Below are positions 991 through 58,328 of a stretch of DNA of 64,000 nt, piece by piece. The notes under the pieces were generated by a model. That model ran no database searches. It worked only from the letters and a program-made list of their open reading frames with translations, and was not told the origin of the DNA. Source of the DNA: Candidatus Nitrosotenuis cloacae (GTDB lineage: Archaea > Thermoproteota > Nitrososphaeria > Nitrososphaerales > Nitrosopumilaceae). The stretch's first letter is position 1, and every line of letters begins with the position of its first letter. The position numbers and the translations under genes were made by a program. The stretch spans positions 1 to 64,000 of the forward strand of contig NZ_JAPPVQ010000005.1 in NCBI RefSeq assembly GCF_026768455.1, given 5' to 3'.

Positions 991-2391
991 CTAGGTTCTG
1001 ATGCTGCATCTGTTCGGGCCCATCTCCAGGTCCGGAATCTGCATCGGGGAGACCGGGATGACGCCCTTGTTTATCTTAATTATCATGGAATAGTTCATCG
1101 GCCTTGGGGTCGTGATGCTGACGACCTTTGAGATGAATTCCAGCTGCGCAAGGTCGAGCAGAGGCAGAGTCTTTGCATCCCGTATTGTGGTGAAAAACAA
1201 TCCGTCCTTTGATTTGACACCTTCCCCGTGGTGTGTCGGAAATACCTTGGTGTCGTCTGGAAACTTTAGTAGTTTGTTGTGTAGCGTGTTGTACAGATTT
1301 GCTGCAAATTCTTCTGCCTGGTCCCTCAGGTCCGGTCTGCCGATTCCTTCAACAAACAAAGTGTCGCCGCTAAAGACATACTTGTCGTCGAGCACAAACG
1401 ACATGCTTCCGGACGTGTGGCCCGGAGTGTGGATTGCTTTTAGGTGCTTTGAGCCAAACGAAATCACTGTGCCGTCCTCGATTTTTTCGCACTCTATCTT
1501 GTATTCTTCAAGCTTGCTGAGGTGCAGTTTTGCGCCGGCAATCTGCGCAAGGTCTCTTGCAGCAGAGACGTGGTCTGCGTGCTGATGAGTGTCTATTACT
1601 TTGGTGATCTTGAGTCCCTCTTTTTGCGCAAACTCGACGTATTTTGCGGCAGGATATGTCGGGTCGATTACTACTGCTTCGCCATCTGCACCTATTATGT
1701 GGGAGAGACAACCCTTGCCAATTTTTTCTACCTGAATTATCGTTGTGTCTCCGTCTTTGAGTGTGGTGGCGTTTAGCACCTGGTTCCACATTGCCATGCC
1801 TCCCACCAATGACGTTGCCTCTATGCCGCTTTTAGCAAGCGCAAAAGTTGCGACCATGGAGCGGTTTCCATGTGAGCAGATGGTGACAATTTTTTTGCCC
1901 TTTGGAATCGCTTCCTGCGATTCCGACATGAACAGCTGGGACAGAGGAATGTTTACAGCTCCTGGAATTTTGAAATCTGAAAACTCTGACGGCTCTCTTA
2001 CATCAAGCAGAAACACATCATCACTTTGCTTTAGTGCGGACCACAGCGCATCGCCACTGATTGCGGTGTCCTGGGTGCTCTTTACTAGGTCTTTTTTCCA
2101 GCTCTTGATGCCGTCCTTTAGATAATGTGCATCAAAACCAAAGCGCGCCATCATGGTGGCATTTTCCTTTGCCGTAGTCGCGTCCTCATCAATTAGTATT
2201 ATTTTCATGTTCGGTGGAATCTTTGACATTATTACCTGTTTTTGCTGCATGGAATCGCATACTGCATTTGCAGCCCCTGGAATGTGGCCTTCCATGTAAC
2301 TCTGCTTTGGCCTGATGTCCAAAACTAGGACTGGCGTCTTGCTGTCGAGCATTTGTAGTAACTCGTCGGAGCCTACCTCGATTGAACTCAT
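991..2391 (-). CDS. Double-rhodanese / metallo-beta-lactamase-fold protein (persulfide dioxygenase-like)
   Basis: Three domains in the order rhodanese, rhodanese, MBL. From the ATG at 2391 the first rhodanese (LVLDIRPKQSYMEGHIPGA) has no evident catalytic Cys loop. The second has a CSHGNRS active loop. The MBL domain has THQHADH, HTPGHTSGSM and SGDTLFVEGIGRPD, matching ETHE1-type persulfide dioxygenases and glyoxalase II relatives. Likely role: sulfane-sulfur oxidation or transfer. An upstream in-frame start at 2457 adds 22 residues. I prefer 2391 because the homologous part starts there (MSSIEVGSDELLQ) and an AT-rich TATA-like element lies about 27 bp upstream, but this is not certain. Confidence 0.85.
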   Translation of the reverse strand: MSSIEVGSDELLQMLDSKTPVLVLDIRPKQSYMEGHIPGAANAVCDSMQQKQVIMSKIPPNMKIILIDEDATTAKENATMMARFGFDAHYLKDGIKSWKKDLVKSTQDTAISGDALWSALKQSDDVFLLDVREPSEFSDFKIPGAVNIPLSQLFMSESQEAIPKGKKIVTICSHGNRSMVATFALAKSGIEATSLVGGMAMWNQVLNATTLKDGDTTIIQVEKIGKGCLSHIIGADGEAVVIDPTYPAAKYVEFAQKEGLKITKVIDTHQHADHVSAARDLAQIAGAKLHLSKLEEYKIECEKIEDGTVISFGSKHLKAIHTPGHTSGSMSFVLDDKYVFSGDTLFVEGIGRPDLRDQAEEFAANLYNTLHNKLLKFPDDTKVFPTHHGEGVKSKDGLFFTTIRDAKTLPLLDLAQLEFISKVVSITTPRPMNYSMIIKINKGVIPVSPMQIPDLEMGPNRCSIRT

Positions 2392-2517
2392 ATACCTGAA
2401 AAAACCCGTGCCAAATTTAGAACTTGCGCTATGGTTGCAATTCGTGTCATACTGCAAACAAGCTCATCTAATTCGAACACATGATTCGATATTAAATGCG
2501 ACTTCAAGTGATCTGTA

Positions 2518-3525
2518 TTGCCGCGATTCATCAACAAAAAAGACCCAAACGAGAATGCAAATGATGGCAGGATGATCTTCTTCTCAAAGGCTCCAGTTCA
2601 GGGTGCGGAAACGGAGACTGGGCTAAAGTCTTCGGAGCCGGGTCACAAGACCGAATTTGAGAGAATACTTGGAGATTCGGACGAGGCATTTCAATCAAAG
2701 AACCCACTGCAGGTAGAAGACAGGTACATGATGCTCACTGGGATAATCGAGGACGAACGAAAGGAACTAAGCAACATTCAGGAACTAATCCGGAAGCGCT
2801 CAGAGACTCTGGATGCGGCAAAAAAGCTGCTAAGAGAAAGGCAGAACCTGCTTCAGACACACCTTGACAGGAGGCTTAACAAGTTTACCGTAGTCGGAGA
2901 GATGTCCTCCAAGATGGTCCACGACATAAAGAACCCACTAACCGTGATCAAAGTGCAGGTGGATCTTTTGAAGCTGCGATACTCAAAGGAAGAAGACACT
3001 ACACTGCTCAACTCTCTGGATAGAATGGCACAGGCAGTGAACGGAATATCAAACCAGATAAACGACATATTGAACTTTATTAGAGAAACGCCATCCGCGT
3101 TTGAAAACAACAGCATTCTGAAAATACTAACCGATTCTATTGCATGCATAGACAAACCAAACAACGTCTCAATCGAGCTTCCTGAAAGCGATCTTACTGT
3201 GCCGTGCGATGCGACAAAACTGCAGAGGGTATTTGGCAACATGATTGCAAACTCTATTCAAGCTCTTGAAAAAGGCGGCACGATAACAATTGGTCTATCT
3301 GAGCATGACGGTAGCGTACTGGTACAGATAAGCGACAGCGGACCTGGCATTCCCACCGAGATACTGCCGAAAATTTTTGATCCGCTATTTACCACAAAGA
3401 GCGACGGAACGGGACTTGGCCTGTCAACGTGCAAGAAGATAATTGAGGAAGAGCACAACGGCTCCATCTCTGTGAAGAACAATCCGACCACATTTACAAT
3501 AAAAATTCCAAAAAACCCTCAATGA
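2518..3525 (+). CDS. Soluble sensor histidine kinase
   Basis: A 335-residue kinase without membrane segments. A helical, probably coiled-coil input region (about residues 75-115) precedes the H-box (GEMSSKMVHDIKNPLTV, phospho-acceptor His near residue 135). It continues with the N-box (NMIANSIQALEKGG), G1 (DSGPGIP), F-box (IFDPLFTTK) and G2 (GTGLGLSTCKKI). No receiver-domain gene is nearby, so the partner is unknown. TTG at 2518 lies about 27 bp after a TATA-like box (about 2486-2495), which favours it. An ATG at 2572 is the alternative and would remove 18 residues. Confidence 0.9.
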   Translation: MPRFINKKDPNENANDGRMIFFSKAPVQGAETETGLKSSEPGHKTEFERILGDSDEAFQSKNPLQVEDRYMMLTGIIEDERKELSNIQELIRKRSETLDAAKKLLRERQNLLQTHLDRRLNKFTVVGEMSSKMVHDIKNPLTVIKVQVDLLKLRYSKEEDTTLLNSLDRMAQAVNGISNQINDILNFIRETPSAFENNSILKILTDSIACIDKPNNVSIELPESDLTVPCDATKLQRVFGNMIANSIQALEKGGTITIGLSEHDGSVLVQISDSGPGIPTEILPKIFDPLFTTKSDGTGLGLSTCKKIIEEEHNGSISVKNNPTTFTIKIPKNPQ

Positions 3526-53116: not shown

Positions 53117-54871
53117 TCAGAGCAGGCTGCTTACTAGCTTTTTGATTGACTCTATTTCGTCCTCTTCCTGTCGTATCTTCTTGTCGACTACGCGCAGCAT
53201 GGCCTCATTCCACACGTGGTGCGAAAAGAAGTTGTGCTTTGTATTTGCAATCTCCATCTCGTCGTCGACTGCGGTGTCCTCGAGGAATTTTGTCACCACC
53301 ACGTCGGTGAGCCTCATGATTCTCTCGCTCAGCTTGTAGCTCTTGAAGATTGGCTCCAGCTTTACAATGTCCTCCTTAAAGTCGCCCTTTGTTCCAAGTA
53401 TCTTTTTGTGGACTATCCTAAAGAACACCGCCACAAAGAACAGCGTGGCATATCTCTTTGTCTTGTGTCCTCCCCGCTTGCCGTACCCAAGAGATTTCTT
53501 TGCAAACTCTTTTACTAGATACGGGTAGAGCAGCAGCCTGTAGTCGTCCTTGAGGTTCTCATTGAACACGTCGTCGTACTTGCTTCCGCGCGGAAGGAAC
53601 TGTGCAGGTGAGCTGTACGACTCGGTAGGTCTCTGCTCGATTCCCGCAATCAATACCTGGATTGCGTCCTTTGCAACAATTACTTTTTTGTGATTGTCTG
53701 GAAGGTACCTGTTGTAGATGGTATCCCCGGTGAACTCTATTTGCTGCGACTTTGTTTTAGAGTCGAACGAGCCGGCCTGTATCTCGTAAAAATATCCATA
53801 GTTTTCAAGCTGTGACTTGATGGACTTGTGAAAGTCCATGAGTGAGACTAGGTCCTTTCCGCGAACAGAGTTCTGCGAGTTTCGGTACTTTGTGATGTTG
53901 TTTTGGTCATGCTCGTCATCTGCCTTGATTATTGTTACTGTGATACTTCCGTCCAGATTGTTGGTCCTCTTTGCGTGGTCCAGAATGGAGTTAGATGTCT
54001 GCGCGCCGTTGACTATCTGCGGCGCGTGCAGCATCAGGTTGTTGTCCTCAAGTTGCTCAAAATCGGAAACTACTATCGTGATTCCGTTGTTATAGTAGAA
54101 GAATTTGTCAGGCGAGCTCTGAAGCGTCTCGCGGATTCCCTTGTTGACGTTTGTCTTAAACTGCATCCACTGCCTGATGTTTGACTCAAAGACATAGTCG
54201 CGGTTTTTGATCACAAATTCTGTCAGCTCCCTCAGCTTTAGTATGCCTACGACCGTGTTTTTGTAGTGGATCTTGTCCTCCAGCTTTATCTTTGATTTTT
54301 TTCCGGCAGCCGGCTTTTTTATTCGGTCCCAGAGATTCTTGACAATCCTGTCGATGTCCATTATGTCGACCACGTCGTCGCCCTCGTACTCTACCTGCTG
54401 GTTCGTGACGTAGCAGCACTCCACTTTGAGATTCTTCTCTTGGATCTTTGTCACCAGGTTTGCAAGCTCAGGCCTCATCTTTGTGACATCCTTGCTCAGC
54501 AGGCGCCTTACGTCTTCTTTGAACTTGGCAATTGCCTCCTCTGAGTGGGACGTTCCGTATTTTGACTGGAACAGTCTTATCTTGTTGTCAGAAAAGTCCA
54601 CCGGAAGGTATGCGTCTATTCCAAGATCATTTGCCCCGTCGACTATTGCGTCAGATGCGTCGTCCTCCGTAGCTTCAAAGACTCTGGTCAGGACCCAGTG
54701 CAGAAAGTTGTGTCCCTTTTCGACGTCGCTCTTGCCGCTTTCGGTGTACTCTATTATGCTGCCCCTGATGTTCTCAGAAAAGCCCTCCATCGGCTGCTCT
54801 TGCTTTTTTTGGACCAGCAGCGAATGGGCGCCCGGAATGTACTCTAACAGTCCGTTGCTTTTTTCTGCCAC
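53117..54871 (-). CDS. AIPR-domain protein with nuclease-like N-terminus
   Basis: 584 residues. The N-terminal domain has NDLGIDAYLPVDFSDNKIRLFQSKY (Asp86 ... Gln102-x-Lys104), an Mrr/PD-(D/E)xK nuclease pattern. The middle to C-terminal part has APQIVNGAQTSNSI and TKYRNSQNSVRGKDLVSL, hallmarks of the AIPR (abortive infection phage resistance) family. Relatives protect bacteria against phages. No toxin, methylase or helicase partner lies beside it, so it would be a single-gene defence system. GTG start, about 26 bp after TTCTAAATAC. Confidence 0.85.
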   Translation of the reverse strand: MAEKSNGLLEYIPGAHSLLVQKKQEQPMEGFSENIRGSIIEYTESGKSDVEKGHNFLHWVLTRVFEATEDDASDAIVDGANDLGIDAYLPVDFSDNKIRLFQSKYGTSHSEEAIAKFKEDVRRLLSKDVTKMRPELANLVTKIQEKNLKVECCYVTNQQVEYEGDDVVDIMDIDRIVKNLWDRIKKPAAGKKSKIKLEDKIHYKNTVVGILKLRELTEFVIKNRDYVFESNIRQWMQFKTNVNKGIRETLQSSPDKFFYYNNGITIVVSDFEQLEDNNLMLHAPQIVNGAQTSNSILDHAKRTNNLDGSITVTIIKADDEHDQNNITKYRNSQNSVRGKDLVSLMDFHKSIKSQLENYGYFYEIQAGSFDSKTKSQQIEFTGDTIYNRYLPDNHKKVIVAKDAIQVLIAGIEQRPTESYSSPAQFLPRGSKYDDVFNENLKDDYRLLLYPYLVKEFAKKSLGYGKRGGHKTKRYATLFFVAVFFRIVHKKILGTKGDFKEDIVKLEPIFKSYKLSERIMRLTDVVVTKFLEDTAVDDEMEIANTKHNFFSHHVWNEAMLRVVDKKIRQEEDEIESIKKLVSSLL

Positions 54872-55742: not shown

Positions 55743-55846
55743 TTCAATGAATTAACAAGGCGGCCCGATAAAAGAATATGAGTTAAAAATTTCTACCCAC
55801 TTATGGATTTAAGCAGACTTAAAAGAGATTGGAGATCAAAAAATAC

Positions 55847-56602
55847 ATGGCGTGGCTTTTGGACGCACACATACACCTCTCGGATCCGGAATACGCCTCT
55901 AACATGGATGTAATTGTCAACTCGATGGACAGGCTGGGACTGAGGGCGTGTGCGGTGTCTATGGACAACGAGTCGTCAAAGAACACGCTTGCAATTGCCG
56001 CAAGGAGCGACCACGTGCTACCGTTCATCGGGATTCACCCAGAAAAGGCAGCAGACGACCTGGATATGATGGTCGACCTCATACGGAATAATGCGGCCGC
56101 AATCTCGGGAATAGGGGAGATCGGGCTGGACAAGACATATTGTTCCGATGAGGCGCAATTCAAAAGGCAGCACCTTGTGTTCTCCACTCTCTTGGAGGTG
56201 GCAGAAAAGCTGCACAAGCCTGTCTCGGTTCACTCTAGGAAGACGCTGGACGAGGTGCTGGATATGATCCCATCATACAAGACGGGCGGATTTCTTTTGC
56301 ACTGGTTTGATGGGAGCAAAAAGCAGCTTGCACGCGCAATGGACCTTGGGTGCTTTGTCTCATACGGACCTGTCATGGTGTACTCGCAGGACAAGCAGGT
56401 GATGGCGTCTGCATCAAACAGGGACAAGATACTAGTTGAGACTGACGGCCCGGTAAAATTCTCGCACTGCTTTGGTATGAAGGCAGCTCAGATCAGTTTC
56501 ATACCTAGCGTGATGTTCGCTCTGTCAAAAACGCTGGGGCAGTCGTACGACGAGACTGAGGCCATGCTTGAGGGCAACGCCAAACGCTATCTTCGAATAT
56601 AA
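55847..56602 (+). CDS. TatD-family metal-dependent hydrolase
   Basis: About 251 residues from ATG 55847 (MAWLLDAHIHLSDPEY; H-x-H metal motif). Further motifs: PFIGIHPEKAADD, GIGEIGLDKTY (metal Glu), PVSVHSRKTLDEVLDMI, HWFDGSKKQLARAMDLGCFVS and LVETDGPVKF (catalytic Asp). A probable DNase/hydrolase of the amidohydrolase superfamily. Start supported by a TATA-like GACTTAAAAG about 25 bp upstream. The next gene, rps17e, begins 31 bp after its stop. Confidence 0.88.
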   Translation: MAWLLDAHIHLSDPEYASNMDVIVNSMDRLGLRACAVSMDNESSKNTLAIAARSDHVLPFIGIHPEKAADDLDMMVDLIRNNAAAISGIGEIGLDKTYCSDEAQFKRQHLVFSTLLEVAEKLHKPVSVHSRKTLDEVLDMIPSYKTGGFLLHWFDGSKKQLARAMDLGCFVSYGPVMVYSQDKQVMASASNRDKILVETDGPVKFSHCFGMKAAQISFIPSVMFALSKTLGQSYDETEAMLEGNAKRYLRI

Positions 56603-56633
56603 CTATAAAATACCCTGCCTGATAACCACGAAA

Positions 56634-56999
56634 GTGGATAGAATAAACCGACTTGTAATGCAGGTGTTAGCCAAACACAAAGACGAGTTTACCACAGATT
56701 TTGCAAAAAACAAAAAGGTCCTTGACCAGGTAGCAATAATCCGTTCAAAAGGTCTGAAAAACGAGATGGCCGGATACATCACCAAGTTCGTTAAACGAGA
56801 GGCGACATCAAAGGCGCAAAAGGCAGAACAGGACGCACAGATCGAGGCAAGAAGCGAGCAGGCAAAGGCCGCACAGGAAGTTGACGCAGACGTTGAAGAG
56901 ACTGTGGATTCTGAGGATGCCGAAGAAGACGGCGCCGAAGAGACAGTAGAGGACTCGACGCCGCAAGAGATTGTTGTGGAAAGCAAAGCCGAAGAGTAA
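56634..56999 (+). CDS. rps17e: Small-subunit ribosomal protein S17e with acidic C-terminal extension
   Basis: From GTG 56634: MDRINRLVMQVLAKHKDEFT, TDFAKNKKVLDQVAIIRSKG, LKNEMAGYITKFVKRE, the complete S17e (eS17) domain of about 60 residues. A further 60-residue tail rich in Ala/Glu/Asp (VDADVEETVDSEDAEEDGAE) follows, which ordinary archaeal S17e lacks. GTG is chosen because TATA-like AACTATAAAATACC is centred about 26 bp upstream, giving a leaderless mRNA; earlier codons in frame lie inside the tatD gene. Confidence 0.85.
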   Translation: MDRINRLVMQVLAKHKDEFTTDFAKNKKVLDQVAIIRSKGLKNEMAGYITKFVKREATSKAQKAEQDAQIEARSEQAKAAQEVDADVEETVDSEDAEEDGAEETVEDSTPQEIVVESKAEE

Positions 57000-57029: not shown

Positions 57030-57803
57030 TTGATTACCGTAAAACTGCTGGGTGGTGCAAAAAAGTCATTTGGACTGGACCAGATACTTGTGGATCTTCA
57101 AGATGCTGCAATTAGGGACCTGCTTGACCATCTTGTATCAATAAAGCCAAAGAGCACGCCTGAGCTTGACATCAAGAACATGCTAATTGCAGTAAATGGC
57201 GCCGACTCGTCGGCAATGGATGGATTGGAGACAATCATTCGTGACGGCGACGTGGTGAGCATAATTCCGATAATTCATGGCGGCGCACCAAGGACACGGT
57301 TTAGGATCTGCAACAAGTCAGTCGAGCTGTTCTACATCGTGCACAAAAAGGGGGAAAATTACGCTCTGCTTGATTCGATTAGAAAAAAGTTCCCAAGATT
57401 GGTCGTCGAGGGAGTGTCTGCTCAATACGTGCTTAGTGTCACCCATGCAAAAAAGATAGTTGGACTGTCTCTCTTTGCGCAAAAAAATGGACTGTTGCTG
57501 TCAAAAAAGCTGGAGACTGATGTGCTTTTGAGGTTTGCCGCAACAAAGCAGATCTCAGACGCAATGGATGCGGTTGGAATCGAGTCTGCGGACGACTTTG
57601 TACTTGTTGCAATCGGGGAAAGGAAGGCGCAAGACTCCTTGCACCGGTTCGTCGGGCAGTATCTTGGGAGGATGCCAGACAGAACCGACTCTGAGTTTCT
57701 GCAAAAGCACTTTGGAATATCAAAAATGCACCTGTCTGCTGCCGTATCAGAGCGTCCACTTGAGGACATTTTGGTCGAGAGGGCAGCAGTGCTATTCCAT
57801 TGA
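57030..57803 (+). CDS. ThiS/MoaD-like domain fused to KEOPS subunit Cgi121
   Basis: 257 residues with TTG start. Residues 1-85 (ITVKLLGGAKKSFGLDQILV ... DGDVVSIIPIIHGG) are a ubiquitin-like ThiS/MoaD beta-grasp domain ending in Gly-Gly (84-85), here not at the C-terminus. Residues about 90-257 (RICNKSVELFYIVHKKGENY, LLRFAATKQISDAMDAVGIE, DDFVLVAIG) match Cgi121 of the KEOPS t6A complex. The 12-bp overlap with the convergent THUMP gene is minor. The fusion call is by motif; the thiocarboxylate or conjugation role of the GG is unknown. Confidence 0.75.
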   Translation: MITVKLLGGAKKSFGLDQILVDLQDAAIRDLLDHLVSIKPKSTPELDIKNMLIAVNGADSSAMDGLETIIRDGDVVSIIPIIHGGAPRTRFRICNKSVELFYIVHKKGENYALLDSIRKKFPRLVVEGVSAQYVLSVTHAKKIVGLSLFAQKNGLLLSKKLETDVLLRFAATKQISDAMDAVGIESADDFVLVAIGERKAQDSLHRFVGQYLGRMPDRTDSEFLQKHFGISKMHLSAAVSERPLEDILVERAAVLFH

Positions 57804-58328
57804 GCCGCGCTTTGTGCGCTCTACGCTCAAAACCTCGTCGTCCTTTAGTATTGACACGCCGCAGATTGTACCAATAGTCTCGACTAGGACGACCCAGTCA
57901 TATTTCTGAAGCGAGACCTTGTTCTTTATCCTGTCTGCGACGCGCGTTATTATCTCGGCAGAGGATATGTCGGAGTCCCTCTTCTCTATGGTTATCCTGT
58001 ATGTCTCATCCTGCTTGATCTTCTGGGACTGCGCTGCTGCGGCGTCTGCTATTGAGTCCAGGTTGCATTCTACTACATCGAACATTGGGATCACTCTCAT
58101 AGTGTACCTGATGGTCCACGGTTCGTCTTCGAGCTTTTCGCGGATCTTTTTTATCACGTCGGTGTGGGACAGTGTGGTCTTTACTGTGAGTATTCCAGAA
58201 AAGCTTGTTATCACAATCTGCGGCCCTGCATCGCCAATCTCTTTTAGTATTGATGCGATCTCTTCTTTTGTCTCGTCCTCAAAATGCCTTGCACACGTAA
58301 CGATTAGATCCAAGTTTGCTTCAAGCAC
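57792..58328 (-). CDS. THUMP-domain protein (TAN1-like)
   Basis: 178 residues: an N-terminal NFLD-like part (LIVTCARHFEDETKEEIASI, GPQIVITSFSGILTVKT) and a THUMP domain (YRITIEKRDSDISSAEIITR, KYDWVVLVETIGTICGVSIL). This matches archaeal/eukaryotic TAN1/THUMPD1, which helps acetylate C12 of tRNAs. No catalytic domain, so it acts as the tRNA-binding adaptor. Convergent with the KEOPS fusion gene, another tRNA-modification factor. Confidence 0.82.
   Translation of the reverse strand: MLEANLDLIVTCARHFEDETKEEIASILKEIGDAGPQIVITSFSGILTVKTTLSHTDVIKKIREKLEDEPWTIRYTMRVIPMFDVVECNLDSIADAAAAQSQKIKQDETYRITIEKRDSDISSAEIITRVADRIKNKVSLQKYDWVVLVETIGTICGVSILKDDEVLSVERTKRGSME

Follow-up and report, generated by a model that had tools for sequence, protein, structure and literature searches.

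The question raised by this locus is why a ubiquitin-like protein (Ubl) is encoded in one reading frame with Cgi121, a subunit of KEOPS, and whether the two are meant to remain joined. In the window, which is the whole stretch of 64,000 nucleotides analysed here, positions 57030-57803 of the forward strand form a single uninterrupted open reading frame (ORF) of 257 amino acids, with a TTG start, no internal stop codon and its terminal stop codon at 57801-57803 (Table 1). A preliminary description of the DNA had proposed a fusion of a ThiS/MoaD beta-grasp domain to Cgi121, and this assignment was borne out, as both domains scored above the Pfam cut-offs and were matched in structure comparison. 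The N-terminal domain reached 43.7 bits against a Pfam ThiS cut-off of 22.5 over residues 4-85 and fell below the cut-offs of all NCBIfam equivalogs (MoaD, SAMP1, and Urm1-like), so that it is assigned at the level of the superfamily. The C-terminal domain exceeded the curated cut-off of Pfam CGI-121 over residues 129-253 (E = 9.2e-8), and scored 105 bits with the NCBIfam equivalog for KEOPS Cgi121, for which the cut-off is 40.

Table 1. Features of the fused gene and of its neighbours in the window.
Feature	Coordinates	Strand	Evidence and remarks
TatD-family nuclease, upstream	55829..56602	+	Pfam 7.6e-48; conserved neighbour
Ribosomal protein S17e, upstream (exact start unsure)	56568..56999	+	Pfam 2.7e-16; upstream neighbour in all family f1 fusions read
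ThiS/MoaD/Urm1-type ubiquitin-like (beta-grasp) domain, residues 1-85	57030..57284	+	Pfam ThiS 4.2e-11; model structure Z up to 12.8 against MoaD/Urm1/SAMP
H83-G84-G85 tail, proposed cleavage site after G85	57276..57284	+	Invariant in 54 aligned fusions; split relatives end there or 1-9 residues beyond
Cgi121 (KEOPS subunit) domain, residues 88-257	57291..57800	+	NCBIfam Cgi121 3e-30; model structure Z up to 17.4 against Cgi121/TPRKB
Gln174-Ile175, equivalent to mjCgi121 Gln71-Ile72 (tRNA CCA-tail contacts)	57549..57554	+	Invariant; mapped via profile alignment to mjCgi121 and PMC7718258
THUMP-domain protein, convergent; Tan1/THUMPD1-like inferred from architecture	57792..58328	-	Pfam THUMP 5.7e-8; conserved convergent neighbour

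The AlphaFold model of the fusion (mean pLDDT 92, pTM 0.67) consists of two confident domains connected by a softer joint at residues 81-90 (pLDDT 68), within which the HGG motif falls, its two glycines being residues 84-85 (57279-57284). Structure comparison of the model matched residues 1-85, which are predicted to adopt the beta-grasp fold, with MoaD, Urm1, SAMP1, and CysO, and residues ~85-257 with solved Cgi121/TPRKB structures. After a cut at G85, the Cgi121 half in the model would begin three residues ahead of its first strand, near the N-terminus of the solved Cgi121 chains. The resemblance to KEOPS Cgi121 (M. jannaschii MJ0187 and human TPRKB) extends from the fold to the pair of residues, Gln71 and Ile72 in mjCgi121, that contact the CCA tail of tRNA (PMC7718258), and the equivalent of mjCgi121 Gly80 is kept in at least 90% of the aligned fusions. 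In contrast, the Cgi121 proteins of solved structure carry no Ubl domain, and Met60 and Gln28 of mjCgi121 are not kept in the window protein, which has Thr163 and Glu127 instead. The residue equivalent to mjCgi121 Gln28, a contact of tRNA A76, lies at position 127 (57408-57410), where at least 90% of fusions have Gln and members of the window's genus have Glu or Thr.

A survey of homologues across Nitrososphaerota, suggested in the preliminary description, confirmed the spread of the fusion: searches with the whole protein and with a Cgi121 profile returned 62 distinct fused ORFs, of which 57 belong to the window's family (f1), four to family f3 and one to family f71. Among named organisms, the window is closest to Candidatus Nitrosotenuis and other Nitrosopumilaceae, and in family f1 the gene is fused in essentially the whole family. 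The HGG motif is present in all 62 ORFs. A corresponding count in 80 named loci is partly circular, as one of the scan patterns included HGG; the non-circular evidence is that from the loci found by the Cgi121-profile and whole-protein searches. In an alignment of 54 fusions with a mean column identity of 57%, just 14 columns are invariant, H83, G84, and G85 among them, and the stretch past the glycines differs in both sequence and length. The f71 member (L096, genome G331) is a Ubl-Cgi121 fusion at HGG outside the order, situated at a contig end, and perhaps represents an independent fusion.

Elsewhere in the order, in families other than that of the window, and in one congener of the window (G061), Ubl and Cgi121 are encoded separately, by genes that almost always abut or overlap and mostly lie downstream of S17e as well. 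The Ubl gene ends exactly after HGG in 14 split or separated loci and runs 1-9 residues beyond it in 10 others (ending HGGA, HGGS, HGGCL, HGGMVGV and similar, directly before the stop); four genomes of genus g12 have the Cgi121 gene with no Ubl beside it. A tree of both domains contains six changes between the fused and split states, at least three of them forced by well-supported branches, and the state thus changed at least three to six times. These repeated changes indicate that fusion and splitting occur easily, with the boundary always at the GG. In G061, a single draft, the junction (L002) has an in-frame TGA after HGGA with a TTG directly next, and the HGG codons, GGAGGT, are positioned like a Shine-Dalgarno sequence for that TTG; the stop could be a true split, a site of readthrough or an error. 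Internal initiation of this kind was considered as a general source of free Cgi121 and rejected, as GGAGGN codons are limited to some of the fusions, and the majority of fusions, including that of the window, lack an ATG, GTG, or TTG within 14 codons after HGG.

The gene content of the window's genome (G000, 99.3% complete) was established by profile searches. They detected only two ThiS-family domains, namely the Ubl-Cgi121 fusion and a second Ubl fused to the single E1, and no free Ubl gene. The paired E1-like enzyme for which the preliminary description had proposed a search is thus present, and its Ubl carries an internal AGG kept in all relatives read. E1 enzymes adenylate a free C-terminal glycine (MoeB/ThiF/Uba4 chemistry), and an internal glycine cannot be adenylated. 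The GG of the Cgi121-linked Ubl is invariant but internal and would become free for E1 only after a cut; since the GGs of both Ubls are internal, neither can be activated as translated, and each is either cut or does not work as a carrier. The same genome encodes a JAMM protein with an intact metal-binding and catalytic motif, E...HSHP...S..D (G000:C7:80710-81027, NESC...HSHPHSEARPSSTD), a TtuA/Ncs6-type PP-loop enzyme, and the KEOPS partners Kae1 (C13:61837-62613) and Bud32 (C13:63255-63845). No MoaE was found by profile search, which indicates that the target of the Ubl is not molybdopterin, and a molybdopterin role was therefore rejected for this genome. A second, different JAMM type is encoded at G000:C14:179205-179519 (L131, HPYEGILILRG...HSHPSGPATPSVTD) and occurs alongside the first in most genomes checked. 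The Ubl-E1 gene (L129, G000:C13:36000-41000, frame 1568-3020) adjoins a threonine-synthase-like gene and an S-layer-like gene.

We consider it probable, with a rough probability of 0.6, that the fusion is a precursor cut after the GG by a JAMM to yield a Ubl and Cgi121. In the proposed mechanism, the gene product would comprise the Ubl head to tail with the KEOPS subunit, and a JAMM/MPN+ metalloprotease would cleave it after the invariant HGG. The cut would free the C-terminal glycine of the Ubl that E1 requires and leave Cgi121 with a near-native N-terminus. The freed Ubl would carry sulfur, with tRNA 2-thiolation via the TtuA/Ncs6-type enzyme as the most likely purpose, and/or act as a modifier resembling SAMP, while Cgi121 would associate with Bud32 and Kae1 for t6A formation; the fusion would mainly be a means of producing both operon partners together. 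What has been observed in this genome and its relatives comprises the two domains, the invariant HGG, the equivalent split genes, and the genes for E1, JAMM, a TtuA-like enzyme, Kae1, and Bud32. The cleavage itself is argued by analogy: an artificial fusion of SAMP1 to MoaE is cleaved by HvJAMM1 exactly behind its GG, both in vitro and in cells, and deletion of the GG abolishes the cut (PMC4443979), and the JAMM of C. subterraneum processes its own SAMP precursors (PMC6043591). On these precedents, the most likely fate of the fusion is processing, as a precursor, just after G85. The preliminary description had left open whether the protein is cleaved at the GG or uses the Ubl domain for recruitment, and cleavage is the better-supported option, given the invariant HGG, the split relatives ending at the same place, the lack of a free Ubl gene in the genome, and the presence of a JAMM.

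The distribution of the JAMM was compared with that of the fusion in a set of 46 genomes. The JAMM type with the PxESCALL...HSHP motif is absent from four of the 46 and present in every one of the 22 that encode the fusion. No JAMM of any type was found in two genomes of family f59 (G423 and G436); in this family of small genomes (L112, L113, L052, L057), both Ubls are free ORFs ending in HGG and VSGG directly before the stop, and Cgi121 and E1 are separate genes. Genome G445, which lacks the PxESCALL...HSHP type, has only unfused Ubls, and G413, a 91%-complete draft, lacks both this type and E1; its Ubl extends a little way past the GG, which runs counter to JAMM processing. The co-occurrence is suggestive of JAMM processing, with the contrast resting on one clade and one genome and kinship left uncorrected.

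A different reading, which we regard as unlikely, is that the uncut protein is functional, with the Ubl as a permanent docking or regulatory domain of KEOPS that, for example, recruits thiolation enzymes or E1 to the tRNA held by Cgi121, and with HGG as a binding motif. The fusion of essentially the whole family f1 and the short stretch separating the two domains are in keeping with it, and the HGG tail might indeed be kept for binding without cleavage. Against it, many relatives have two separate proteins, so that a permanent link is unnecessary, the fused and split states flip repeatedly, and, an internal glycine not being adenylatable, the genome would have no usable Ubl despite its kept E1 and JAMM. 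The same reading could draw on several drafts of the family that are 98-99% complete (e.g., G068, G287, G197, and G215), in which no E1 was detected and HGG is retained nonetheless; these would also tell against E1-dependent use of the Ubl. However, the E1-less drafts also lack the neighbour of E1, the threonine-synthase-like gene (G411 has only a contig-edge piece of it), and every one of the family's 23 listed single-contig genomes has E1. The gap thus likely reflects a missing or deleted region, and less likely a true loss of E1 in those drafts; E1 loss as an argument against activation was rejected.

Still less probable is a regulated switch, in which the uncut fusion would function in KEOPS, though in an inhibited or altered form, and controlled cleavage would couple Ubl release with t6A activity. 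Covalent SAMP1-MoaE is inactive in Haloferax when uncut and is reactivated by JAMM (PMC4443979), and regulation of KEOPS by SAMPylation has been proposed by Makarova and Koonin (PMC2948915); set against these precedents, the sequence bears no sign of regulation, and split genes suffice in closely related species. That the fusion is a frameshift, assembly, or gene-calling artefact, a concern for which the stop at the G061 junction gives some cause, can be dismissed with near certainty, as the 62 distinct ORFs are intact over many genera, many of them in single-contig genomes, and the fusion has been published independently (PMC2948915).

Returning to the precursor, the lack of a free Ubl in the genome means that the whole Ubl pathway would have to depend on cutting at the GG. 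This leads to a broader proposal, held tentatively, that in this family of ammonia-oxidising archaea no Ubl is encoded in free form and the whole supply comes from JAMM-released Ubl-Cgi121 and Ubl-E1, so that the Ubl (for U34 thiolation and/or protein modification) would be tied 1:1 to Cgi121 (for t6A37) and one polypeptide would supply two modifications of the anticodon loop. If true, a major, globally abundant archaeal lineage would obtain its ubiquitin-like protein solely from fused precursors, one of which would serve two tRNA modifications. A regulatory coupling, or a functional link of the fusion to t6A, may be inferred at most; the connection between t6A modification and a ubiquitin-like pathway drawn in the preliminary description is a conjecture, since the repeated switching between fused and split genes fits simple co-expression of operon neighbours equally well. 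The THUMP gene cited beside it is convergent.

The fusion itself has been known since 2010, when Makarova and Koonin described it as conserved, beside S17e, throughout the Thaumarchaea sequenced by then and suggested SAMPylation of KEOPS or coordinated function; cleavage at the GG is absent from their text (PMC2948915). The window is an example of that fusion, with the same domain pair, lineage, and S17e neighbour, whereas the wider sample includes members of the order in which the two genes are split or unlinked. What is new is the invariance of HGG in 62 fusions, the boundaries of the split genes, the two-Ubl gene content, and the JAMM-less clade with free Ubls; no functional study of the fusion was found in a literature search. 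Among known systems, the SAMP1-MoaE/MoaD-MoaE fusions (Haloferax HvJAMM1, Deinococcus DR0402) likewise place a GG-bearing Ubl N-terminal to its partner in the presence of a JAMM, with an internal glycine that cannot be thiocarboxylated before the cut. They differ in that the partner in the window is a tRNA-binding KEOPS subunit, that its genome lacks MoaE, and that its cleavage is proposed by analogy. JAMM-processed linear Ubl fusions share the internal GG between Ubl and partner, together with a genomic JAMM of intact motif, and the Thaumarchaeota Ubl-E1 (MoaD-MoeB) fusion (PMC2948915; PMC11237513), which is the other Ubl of the same genome, also has an internal GG, but its partner is the activating enzyme itself.

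Of the surroundings of the gene, the preliminary description had singled out a tRNA-acetylation THUMP protein as the next gene. A THUMP protein does adjoin the fusion, but it is convergent on the opposite strand and therefore does not belong to the fusion's transcription unit. Further upstream in the window, a 584-amino-acid ORF at 53117-54871 on the reverse strand shows a likeness, judged by eye, to AIPR abortive-infection proteins.
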